This document shows positions 5,248 through 8,077 of a stretch of DNA of 44,065 bases, piece by piece (the first letter of the stretch is position 1; every line of letters starts with the position of its first letter). The DNA is taken from the NCBI GenBank assembly GCA_022843945.1, contig JALHMR010000041.1, positions 1-44,065 of the forward strand, read 5' to 3'. The stretch is from Rhodospirillaceae bacterium. GTDB taxonomy: Bacteria; Pseudomonadota; Alphaproteobacteria; CACIAM-22H2. A program made the translations under genes and the position numbers. The notes under the pieces were generated by a model. It saw only the letters and a program-made list of their open reading frames with translations, was not told the DNA's origin and did no database searches.

Positions 5248-5871
5248 ATGGAGCGCCCCTTAGAGATCTGCTTCCACAACATGGAATCCTCTCAGGCGAT
5301 GGAGGCGGAGATTCGTCGCGCCGTTGAGCAGCTTGATCGGCGCGGTGGGCTCATCGGCTGCCGGGTGACGATCGACGCGCTACATCGCCAGCACGCGATC
5401 GGCAAAGTCTACTCGGTCCATATCGTGCTGTTCGTCAGCGGCACCGAGATTACCGTGACACACGATCCGAACCACGCCCGGGAGAACTACGCCAAGCATG
5501 ATGATCCCTACGGATCGCTGCGCCTCGCTTTCCGGACGGCGGGCCGCCGGCTCGCGGCCTTCAAGTCGAAGCAGCGCCGGGAGGCTGAGCCGCATCGCCG
5601 GCGCCCGACATCGACGCCGGTCATTCCCGCCGAACGCGCCGACGGGGGCGCGGGAGGCCTCGGGGCCATGGAGGCAGACATGCCACCCAAATCGAAGTCC
5701 GTGCGGCCGAAGAGGCCGCGCAAGCCGCCGCCCGAAAACCACGCCGGGGAGGCTGCAGCGCTCGCCAGCCATCCCTTCGAGGGCGGCAAGCGTCCGGACA
5801 AGGCGTCGCCTAAGCTGAAAAAGCGCGGCGAGATGGCGCGCCCCAAGGACAGCGGCCGCTTCGGCGCCTGA
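5248..5871 (+). CDS. HPF/RaiA-like ribosome-associated protein with long basic tail
   Basis: This is a 207-residue protein. Residues 1-110 resemble the S30Ae fold of hibernation-promoting factor and RaiA: a beta-alpha-beta-beta-beta-alpha pattern with VTIDAL, YSVHIVLFVSGTEITV and the final helix SLRLAFRTAGRRLAAFKSKQRR rich in basic residues. Such proteins bind the 30S decoding region in resting cells. From about residue 112 the sequence is Pro/Arg/Lys-rich and probably disordered, unlike the structured dimerisation domain of long HPF. The start has GAGGTCGT upstream. Inside, GGAGG (5670-5674) stands before an in-frame ATG at 5680, so the last 63 residues may also be made alone. It ends 3 bases from the convergent ligD-like gene. 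The ribosome-associated call is from the N-terminal pattern. Confidence 0.75.
   Translation: MERPLEICFHNMESSQAMEAEIRRAVEQLDRRGGLIGCRVTIDALHRQHAIGKVYSVHIVLFVSGTEITVTHDPNHARENYAKHDDPYGSLRLAFRTAGRRLAAFKSKQRREAEPHRRRPTSTPVIPAERADGGAGGLGAMEADMPPKSKSVRPKRPRKPPPENHAGEAAALASHPFEGGKRPDKASPKLKKRGEMARPKDSGRFGA
5670..5682 (+). promoter_or_regulatory. Internal ribosome binding site within the HPF-like gene
   Basis: GGAGG at 5670-5674 stands five bases before an in-frame ATG at 5680. Translation from it would give a separate 63-residue Lys/Pro-rich peptide starting MPPKSKSVRP and ending KDSGRFGA. It could also be chance within a GC-rich tail. Confidence 0.35.
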
Positions 5872-5874
5872 CTT

Positions 5875-7491
5875 CTAAAGACGCAGGCGCTGGCGGATTT
5901 TCAGCAGCTCCGCCCACGGATCGCGGCGCTGACGCTTGACGCGGGCGAGAACGGCGTCGATCGAGAAGGCGGCTGGCTCGAGCTCCGGCGTCACTTCGCT
6001 CCAGGCCAGCGGCACCGAGATCGGCGCGCCTTCACGGGCCCGGGTCGAGTAGGGGGCGATGGCGGTGGCGCCGAAGTCGTTGCGCAGGTAGTCGATGAAG
6101 ATGCGGCCCTTGCGAACCTTCTTGGCCATGTTGGTGGTGTAACGTTCGGGGGCGCGGGTGGCCATCACCTCGGCAAGCTGGCGCGTGAACTCCTTGGCGG
6201 CCGCCCAGTCCGGTCCCGGCTCGATCGGCACCACGACATGCAGCCCCTTGCCGCCGGTCGTCTTGGGAAAGCTCTTGAGTCCGATCTCATCGAGCAGGCC
6301 GCGGACCTCGTGGGCGGCAGCAACCACGCGTTCCCATGGCACCGACGGATCGGGATCGAGATCGAAGATCAACCGGTCGGGGTGATGGATATCCTTGCCG
6401 CGCGACCCCCAGGGATGGATTTCCAGCGTGCCGAACTGCACGAGCTCGACCAGACCCTGCACATCGTCGACGATCAGATAATCCTCTTCGCCAGCCTTGA
6501 CGTGAATGCGGCGGAGGGCGTCGGACATGCCGGCGGCGGCGTGCTTCTGATAGAAGCACTTCTGGCTGGTGCCGCCGGGGCAGCGCACCAGGCTCAGCGG
6601 CCGGTCGGCGATATGCGGCAGCATGTGCGGCGCGATCGCCGCGTAGTAGCCGGCTAGATCCTGCTTGGTGAGGCCCTGGCCCTTGAACAGCACCCGGTCG
6701 GGATGGGTCAATCGGAAAGGCGGCGGCTCAGCCGATACCTTTGGTCCGGGCTTGGCGCGCCGGCTCTCCTTCTTTGGGGTGGGTTTCTTGGCCATGGGCT
6801 CCGCCCGCTTGGACTCCCAGGTCGCATCCGCAGCCGCCGCGATCTTCTCCAACGACCGGTGGGTCAGCACGCTGCGGTCCTTCTCAAGTATGACGTCCCC
6901 GTGGTCGGACGTCGCGTACTCGTCGTTGGCCTTGATCAGCAGCCAGTTCTCCTTGCCGTTCTCCTCGCGCCCGTGCATGCGCACGAGGTGCCAGCGGCCC
7001 TTGAGCTTCTTGCCGTGCAATTCGAATTCGAGATGGCCCTTGGCATAGCCCTTGTGCGGGTCGCCGATCGGCTCCCAGGTCCCGATGTCCCAGACCATGA
7101 CGGTGCCGCCACCGTACTGGCCCCGCGGGATGATGCCCTCGAAACGCGCGTAGTCCATCGGGTGATCTTCGGTATGCACCGACAGCCGCCGGTCCTTCGG
7201 GTCGAGGCTGGGTCCACGCGTCACGGCCCAGCTCTTCAGCGTGCCGTCGAGCGCCAGGCGGAAGTCATAATGCAGGCGTCGGGCGGCATGCTTCTGCACG
7301 ACGAAGAGGTTGTCATCCCTGGCGGCCGTCTGGCCGCCGCGCGGCTCCGGCGTGATGCCGAAGTCACGCTTGCGGTCGTAGAGCCGCAGGGCCGCCGGCC
7401 GATGCGCGGCGGTGCGGCGCTTGGTCTTGCGCGCCTTGGACCGCGACGCGGGTGGGGATGCGGTCTTTCGTTTGGGGGACGAGCGGGCCAT
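5875..7491 (-). CDS. ligD: LigD-like protein with phosphoesterase and polymerase domains, no ligase domain
   Basis: This is a 538-residue protein of bacterial non-homologous end joining. Residues about 35-192 are the 3'-phosphoesterase domain, with H68, H74, D76 and R78 (QKHAARRLHYDFR), H110 and Y114 (EDHPMDY) in the positions of the known metal and phosphate ligands. Residues about 258-538 are the primase-like polymerase domain, with the catalytic pair D377/D379 (FDLDPD), TTGGKGLHV and the third Asp D467 (FIDYLRND). Between them lie only about 65 residues, mostly Lys/Pro-rich. The ATP-dependent ligase domain (KxDG motif) found in full LigD is absent. The start at 7491 avoids an implausible extension to 7587. 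An AGGT lies nearby but the ribosome site is weak. No ku gene is in the window. The protein could trim and fill ends for a ligase encoded elsewhere. Confidence 0.9.
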   Translation of the reverse strand: MARSSPKRKTASPPASRSKARKTKRRTAAHRPAALRLYDRKRDFGITPEPRGGQTAARDDNLFVVQKHAARRLHYDFRLALDGTLKSWAVTRGPSLDPKDRRLSVHTEDHPMDYARFEGIIPRGQYGGGTVMVWDIGTWEPIGDPHKGYAKGHLEFELHGKKLKGRWHLVRMHGREENGKENWLLIKANDEYATSDHGDVILEKDRSVLTHRSLEKIAAAADATWESKRAEPMAKKPTPKKESRRAKPGPKVSAEPPPFRLTHPDRVLFKGQGLTKQDLAGYYAAIAPHMLPHIADRPLSLVRCPGGTSQKCFYQKHAAAGMSDALRRIHVKAGEEDYLIVDDVQGLVELVQFGTLEIHPWGSRGKDIHHPDRLIFDLDPDPSVPWERVVAAAHEVRGLLDEIGLKSFPKTTGGKGLHVVVPIEPGPDWAAAKEFTRQLAEVMATRAPERYTTNMAKKVRKGRIFIDYLRNDFGATAIAPYSTRAREGAPISVPLAWSEVTPELEPAAFSIDAVLARVKRQRRDPWAELLKIRQRLRL

Positions 7492-7506: not shown

Positions 7507-7532
7507 AACTCGCGGGCCGGGCGCGGAGTTCC
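7507..7532 (-). promoter_or_regulatory. Weak EcfG-like promoter of the ligD-like gene
   Basis: On the minus strand, GGAAC (7532-7528), a 17-base spacer and AGTT (7510-7507) give one mismatch to the EcfG consensus. The leader would be only about 10 bases. End-joining genes are under this sigma factor in some rhizobia, but the match is weak. Confidence 0.25.
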
Positions 7533-7590: not shown

Positions 7591-7615
7591 GGAACGGGCT
7601 TCGCCCCACTCCGTT
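7591..7615 (+). promoter_or_regulatory. EcfG promoter of the small secreted protein
   Basis: GGAAC (7591-7595), a 16-base spacer and CGTT (7612-7615) match the EcfG consensus exactly. Transcription would begin near 7622, about 36 bases before the ATG at 7658. It is the third perfect site in the first 8 kb. Confidence 0.8.
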
Positions 7616-7657: not shown

Positions 7658-8077
7658 ATGTATAAGTCTATGATGACAGTTGCTGCGGCGATGCTGGTCA
7701 GCAGCGTGGCCATGGCGCAGACGACGACCCCGGCGCGGCCGTCGCAGAATCCCGGCCCGACGACACCGCCGGCTGGCTCCCAGCAGCAGACACAGCAGGC
7801 GCCGCAGAACCAGAACTGCCAGCAGATCACCGACGCGGCCAAGCGGACGGCGTGCCTGAACAGCGCACAGACCGGCACGGGTTCGGGCAGCATGTCGACC
7901 GGCAGCCCGCCGAGCGGCAGCTCGCCGAGCGGCACCACGGGCAGCGGCGCGACGGGTTCGGGTTCGGGCAGCTCGGCCCCCTCCGGCTCGATGAATCGCT
8001 CGCCGTCGGGCGGGGCGGGCTCGGGGAGCGGCACCGGATCGGGCACCGGCACCGGCTCGAGCGGCACCACCCGCTAA
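7658..8077 (+). CDS. Small secreted Gly/Ser-rich protein
   Basis: This is a 139-residue product with a Sec signal peptide (residues 1-20, ending SSVAMA before QTTT). The mature part starts Pro/Gln-rich, has a single ordered-looking motif NCQQITDAAKRTACLN with two Cys ten residues apart, and ends in about 70 residues of almost pure Gly/Ser/Thr/Pro. The C-x-x-I-x-D-x3-R-x2-C spacing recalls short motifs in several secreted proteins, but no family is assigned. The ATG at 7658 has GAGGTGAAAA just before it. A perfect EcfG promoter lies upstream and a perfect 12-bp terminator hairpin downstream, so it is a single-gene unit of the general stress response. The low-complexity tail would be flexible and possibly surface-exposed. 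Confidence 0.8.
   Translation: MYKSMMTVAAAMLVSSVAMAQTTTPARPSQNPGPTTPPAGSQQQTQQAPQNQNCQQITDAAKRTACLNSAQTGTGSGSMSTGSPPSGSSPSGTTGSGATGSGSGSSAPSGSMNRSPSGGAGSGSGTGSGTGTGSSGTTR

Follow-up and report, generated by a model that had tools for sequence, protein, structure and literature searches.

The genome studied here encodes a LigD-derived protein in which a phosphoesterase (PE) domain is joined directly to a primase-polymerase (POL) domain, while a LigD-type ligase (LIG) domain of the same lineage has a gene of its own, located next to ku on a different contig. We consider it likely that a LigD has been split into two genes, PE-POL in the window (the whole stretch of DNA analysed, which is an entire contig of 44,065 bases) and LIG beside ku, whose products would work in trans under shared stress control. 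Decay of the PE-POL gene, fusion of separate genes and an assembly error were ranked below this explanation.

The PE-POL gene and its protein

The PE-POL gene is located on the minus strand at positions 5875 to 7491 of the window (ATG at 7491, stop at 5875-5877) and specifies a protein of 538 aa. Using Pfam, LigD_N was identified at residues 66-171 (E 3.9e-44) and LigD_Prim-Pol, overlapped by DNA_primase_S, at residues 275-526 (E 1.3e-98), and the NCBIfam models LigD_PE_dom (TIGR02777; residues 35-191) and ligD_pol (residues 260-501) both scored above their cut-offs. Together with the key residues, these matches delimit a PE domain of aa 35-191 (6919-7389, minus strand) and a POL domain of aa 260-526 (5914-6714, minus strand). 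No ligase domain was detected in the protein by Pfam at E-values up to 0.001, with which the NCBIfam domain models agree; the initial annotation had described PE joined to POL without a ligase, and the linker, where it had considered that a profile search might uncover a ligase domain, contains none. The protein is LigD-derived and is not a ligase, and names may mislead in such a case, as the NCBI 'DNA ligase D' model TIGR02776 is passed (378.9 bits versus a cut-off of 373.2) by a protein that lacks the ligase domain.

All nine residues that had been singled out in the two domains are present at the positions given for them, namely H68, H74, D76, R78, H110 and Y114 in PE and D377, D379 and D467 in POL. 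We take these to be the catalytic residues, and the stretches that contain them align to the solved PE and POL chains 2lj6, 3n9b and 2fao, which are presumably those of P. aeruginosa. The junction between the domains (aa 212-258; 6718-6858, minus strand) corresponds to the place at which full LigDs carry their LIG domain. It begins with the end of the PE-to-LIG linker of full LigDs, RSLEKIA from aa 212 and TWES from aa 224, as had been recognised from the RSLEKIA...W-x-S pattern, and runs into a Lys/Pro-rich linker before POL. The earlier figure of about 65 Lys/Pro-rich residues corresponds to the interval between the PE model, which ends at 191, and the POL model, which starts at 260, but the rich stretch itself comprises only some 30 residues (229-258), at 21 of which Lys, Pro, Arg or Ala is found. 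A search of the viral collection gave no relative, and the 622 plasmid records that match it do so, every one, at below 60% identity.

The neighbouring gene on the plus strand (5248-5871), which converges on PE-POL and stops 3 nt from it, encodes a Ribosomal_S30AE (hibernation factor-like) domain with a long charged tail. This neighbour was sought in nine family genomes in order to find an empty site; it was matched weakly (35-36% identity) in two of the nine, and thus no empty site was defined.

The ku-associated ligase gene and the lineage of the parts

The genome (5.38 Mb, 82 contigs, 96.7% complete) contains one match each to LigD_N, LigD_Prim-Pol, the PF01068 ATP-ligase domain and Ku. The initial annotation had proposed a search for further ligD, ligC and ku genes, and a profile search of the genome's contigs returned no second PE or POL match beside this one ligase and one Ku; a full LigD may lie in the approximately 3% of the genome that is possibly missing. 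When three full LigDs were compared to the genome by tblastn, LIG was matched at the contig 17 locus only and PE and POL in the window only, the three further pieces being short or weak (E 0.023, 0.11 and 0.81).

The separate ligase that the initial annotation had postulated does exist, as a 336-aa gene on contig 17 (locus L103) that has start and stop codons of its own. The ku stop codon ends at L103:9627 and the LIG ATG is at L103:9636, leaving an 8 nt gap between two genes on the same strand. The stand-alone LIG comprises two ligase domains (residues 37-204 and 224-316), and its residues 23-324 align to residues 9-310 (of 310) of the Mycobacterium tuberculosis LigD ligase chain 1vs0. It contains KFDG, DGEIV, YVVFD, EGLISK and WLKSK, which we take to be ligase motifs. 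No PE or POL remnant was found in the 19 kb around the ku-LIG pair, and PhyR is encoded nearby (L103:12416-13264).

For phylogenetic analysis PE, LIG, POL and Ku were excised from the fetched loci and trees were constructed by IQ-TREE, supports being given as ultrafast bootstrap/SH-aLRT. Loci L006, L008, L009, L011-L013, L015 and L017-L019, which belong to other phyla and are in many cases incomplete, were omitted from the LIG, POL, PE, Ku, concatenated and quick trees, hits spanning too little of a model were removed by length, and the long rows L119_2 and L129 were taken out of the POL and PE trees, respectively; the concatenated tree was also built without L010, L014, L129 and L137.

In the LIG tree (56 rows, the stand-alone LigD-type ligases of other genomes included) the contig 17 LIG grouped with the LigDs of genomes G109, G312 and G144 (100/99), and the window PE grouped with the same three (98/87; 45 rows). 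These LigDs are of the PE-LIG-POL type, that of G312 being truncated after LIG by the end of its contig. The concatenated PE+LIG+POL tree (36 rows), from which G312 is absent as its contig holds no POL, again placed the set with G109 and G144 (100/99). The window POL fell into a weak group of 15 rows (82/86; 48 rows) without resolution of its placement, and in a smaller, hand-picked tree of 28 rows it joined G109 and G144 (93/90). The earlier quick trees had recovered the identical LIG group (100) and had placed PE (83) and POL (83) weakly with G109 and G144. Topology tests, for which the groups were picked after the trees had been viewed, rejected neither a POL clade with G109 and G144 (p-AU 0.427) nor one with G117 (p-AU 0.279); for LIG, a clade with G117 was likewise not rejected (p-AU 0.104), while a p-AU of 0.041 was obtained with G004 of the organism's own family and of 0.029 with the stand-alone LIGs of G088, the sole stand-alone LIGs so compared. 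Ku grouped with G312 and G389 (100/100; 38 rows), and in G312 ku divergently adjoins the LigD that is cut by the contig end. The other family members that possess LigD and Ku, G004 and G015, occupy different places in the LIG, PE and Ku trees.

Because LIG and PE have the same three PE-LIG-POL LigDs as companions in their trees, PE-POL and ku-LIG appear to be the two parts of a single split LigD, which supports the proposal of the initial annotation that the ligase domain was lost in frame from a LigD. The PE, LIG and Ku of the set would so have a common source with the G109/G312/G144 lineage, with which POL is compatible. Under this explanation the central LIG domain would have been removed in frame from an ancestor of the PE-LIG-POL type, a LigD resembling those of G109, G312 and G144, to yield PE-POL, and the LIG domain of the same lineage would have survived as the 336-aa stand-alone ligase, co-directional with ku on the other contig. 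The split may have originated either by one excision event or by duplication followed by complementary losses, and the set may have been acquired either by horizontal transfer or through differential loss, the alternatives of each pair being indistinguishable here.

Promoter-like sites upstream of PE-POL and ku

A study that reports ku-ligD among the genes of the Sphingopyxis granuli EcfG regulon gives the EcfG consensus of the general stress response as GGAAC-N16-CGTT (PMC7083833). EcfG is reported to occur in Alphaproteobacteria alone (PMC3892343), and with PhyR encoded near ku-LIG the organism most likely belongs to that class. Upstream of PE-POL an EcfG-type promoter-like site, GGAAC-N18-GTT (equivalent to GGAAC-N17-AGTT), was identified at 7507-7532 on the minus strand, ending 15 nt before the ATG; its spacing is of the right class and its -10 part is one letter off the consensus (the C of CGTT is missing). 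The site before ku (L103:8589-8613), which ends 72 nt before the ku ATG, matches the consensus GGAAC-N16-CGTT exactly. A second GGAAC-N17-GTT site is present in the window at 7591-7615 (plus strand), in the opposite orientation, upstream of an ORF (7658-8077, plus strand) for a small Gly/Ser-rich and possibly exported protein.

GGAAC followed by GTT with spacers of 15-18 occurs six times in the window against a mean of 2.05 in shuffled sequences (six were reached by 2 of 100 shuffles), and six times in L103 against 1.11 (0 of 200 shuffles). Upstream regions of NHEJ genes, 102 in total, were drawn from loci L103-L142 and L162-L181 and from the window, which contributed two. With spacers of 16-18 the motif was present in 41 of these regions, while 89 letter-permuted motifs applied to the same regions reached 12 at best and 1.5 on average, and the opposite strand yielded 14, which is partly to be expected where neighbouring genes are divergent. 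Spacers before GTT were of 17 (25 cases) or 18 nt (16 cases), with none at 16 or 19. By gene, the motif preceded 21 of 36 Ku genes, 13 of 31 PE-LIG-POL genes, 2 of 15 lone LIG genes and 0 of 8 lone POL genes, suggesting that general-stress control of NHEJ may be widespread in the class.

Judging from its domains, the residues it has kept and the promoter-like sites shared by the two loci, PE-POL would clean and fill ends for the separate ligase, as the initial annotation had proposed. Ku would bind the broken ends, PE-POL would remove 3' blocks or ribonucleotides and fill gaps, and the ku-linked LIG would seal in trans, the general stress response turning on both loci together via the EcfG-type promoters. 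In M. tuberculosis, Ku is reported to interact directly with POL and weakly with LIG (PMC8656161), and by this precedent Ku may recruit the two pieces separately, or PE-POL may assist in the recruitment.

Occurrence, competing explanations and related systems

Of the 385 sampled genomes of the class, 66, the organism's own among them, were matched by the full-length protein, and none of these but its own showed PE and POL sharing a frame that lacks LIG. Domain mapping covered 38 of the 66, nine more had domain hits and 19 were judged by matches and frame lengths, several of the 66 showing PE only, POL only or cuts by contig ends such that a PE-POL case may be hidden among them. Three of the four genomes in the family of G109 matched, and a PE-POL form was visible in none (G312 being cut by its contig end). 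The POL family query matched 22 of 116 genomes, again including its own; among the 22 other genomes of its family POL was matched only in G004, G008 (a fragment) and G015 and Ku only in G004 and G015, and same-genus G001 had neither a POL nor a Ku match. A single genome of the class thus displayed the PE-POL form, which leaves no relative in which to show the conservation that the initial annotation had asked for. Among the loci inspected, G207 carries a 1081-aa LigD frame (L119:4189-7431) with two POL domains, the second of which is divergent, while L137 (G340) and L014 (Bacteroidetes) display PE, LIG and POL as three neighbouring genes.

This rarity, both of the PE-POL form in the class sample and of Ku in the family, would fit if PE-POL were the remnant of a broken LigD that has dropped out of end joining, leaving ku-LIG to repair alone. 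The long end branch of PE (0.77 against a median of 0.29), which could reflect relaxed constraint, points in the same direction. We nevertheless regard such decay as unlikely, given that the frame is full-length, that the nine key residues have been kept, that the junction is in frame and that PE-POL has an EcfG-type promoter-like site of its own, while the end branches of POL (0.40 versus 0.35) and of the stand-alone LIG (0.44 versus 0.38) are near their medians.

An origin by fusion, in which neighbouring PE and POL genes merged and LIG was never in the middle, is very improbable. The class does include LIG-less loci at which a PE and a POL frame lie side by side and overlap (L134, L135 and L136, of G050, G079 and G159, respectively), but strongly supported branches separate their PE (100/97) and POL (100/99) from those of the window, the protein of which moreover retains the PE-to-LIG linker end of full LigDs. 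The genomes G050, G079 and G159 gave no Ku match and have no LigD-type ligase, weak ligase matches being confined to a 677-aa and a 532-aa frame in G050 and G079 with none listed for G159, and their PE and POL may serve something besides Ku-dependent end joining.

Loss of the LIG part of an ordinary LigD in the course of assembly is the least credible explanation, for although the genome is a draft in 82 contigs, no second genome of the class has the PE-POL form and a full LigD is indeed found in relatives (G004 and G015), as the initial annotation had cautioned, the junction lies well within its contig, LIG-less POL-PE proteins occur in Verrucomicrobiota (in G446 on a 3.76-Mb contig), and LIG is present once and intact in a ku-LIG gene pair elsewhere, with its own start and stop and no PE or POL remnant around it, a pair that an assembly error would not also create. 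We retain the split of a LigD into two genes as the preferred explanation.

A comparable arrangement was encountered in Verrucomicrobiota, where a protein search of the class of G404 matched 39 of 188 genomes. Eight loci were mapped, seven of them with a single gapless match across both domains (G404, G429, G446, G464, G512, G526 and G546) and G405 in addition. POL-PE proteins without LIG are encoded by G404, G405, G429, G446 and G512 and POL-PE-LIG proteins by G464, G526 and G546; in G429 a stop falls within the search match, yet POL and PE share one 617-aa frame. As in the present case, two processing domains are fused without LIG, and the POL-PE genes of G404 and G446 have ku and an intact stand-alone LIG as neighbours, everything being at one locus; the domain order, however, is opposite to that of the window protein, and the proteins are kin to POL-PE-LIG proteins. 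No ku or LIG was found within the 10.5-11 kb around POL-PE in G429 and G512, and G405 has, beside an intact POL-PE, a 122-aa frame (L227:9376-9741; L016:6521-6889) in which the beginning of Ku continues directly into the end of LIG, representing either a ku-LIG pair collapsed by deletion or an assembly fault. In trees of a hand-picked subset of the earlier rows plus the new loci (26 LIG, 28 POL and 29 PE rows), the eight Verrucomicrobiota POL domains grouped together (100/100) and the stand-alone LIGs of G404 and G446 grouped with the LIGs of POL-PE-LIG proteins (99/93, five rows). LIG may have left a POL-PE-LIG protein or may have joined POL-PE, the trees not fixing which.

It is tempting, if rather speculative, to regard separation of the ligase from LigD as a recurrent state, reached in two phyla with opposite domain orders, in which a fused processing enzyme and a ku-side ligase would achieve two-speed end joining; we hold this to be doubtful as yet. 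If it were true, Ku-LIG would seal clean ends immediately, with the processing enzyme joining only where ends are damaged, a division of labour resembling that of eukaryotic NHEJ.

In the usual description, bacterial NHEJ consists of Ku and a single multi-domain ligase. The PE-POL protein shares with the three-domain PE-LIG-POL LigD of the Pseudomonas aeruginosa type the PE and POL domains and the order in which they come, the linker ends, the key residues and the lineage seen in the trees, and differs from it in that LIG is outside the protein and has its own gene, next to ku on a different contig. Split NHEJ genes are already known as a class under the term 'nonconventional NHEJ' (Sharda et al. 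2020; PMC7719229), in which we met no PE-POL fusion without LIG, and rhizobial LigD domains are reported in different organisations (PMC5124664, citing Kobayashi 2008). In Streptomyces and Archaeoglobus, ligase, polymerase and nuclease are reported to reside on separate proteins (PMC1378119, PMC5124664); ku is kept with the ligase in Archaeoglobus, as here, but the domains of both systems are described as stand-alone with no fused PE-POL. The PE of Methanocella paludicola, encoded in an operon with polymerase and ligase, is reported to be a functional part of archaeal NHEJ (PMC4797286), and its separate proteins provide a precedent for working in trans, although these are single-domain proteins of one operon whereas here a fused PE-POL lies away from ku-LIG. 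The open-access text that we met contains no description of PE-POL or POL-PE without LIG (figure 1 or the supplement of PMC7719229 and Kobayashi 2008 might list such proteins), and it is this rare-looking fusion that appears to be new here.

The coordination of the domains within LigD has been described as an open question (PMC8656161). The lineage studied here appears to have split its own LigD with all parts kept and a stress-promoter signal at both loci, and a LigD so divided offers a natural experiment on whether one chain must hold both the processing and the sealing activity.
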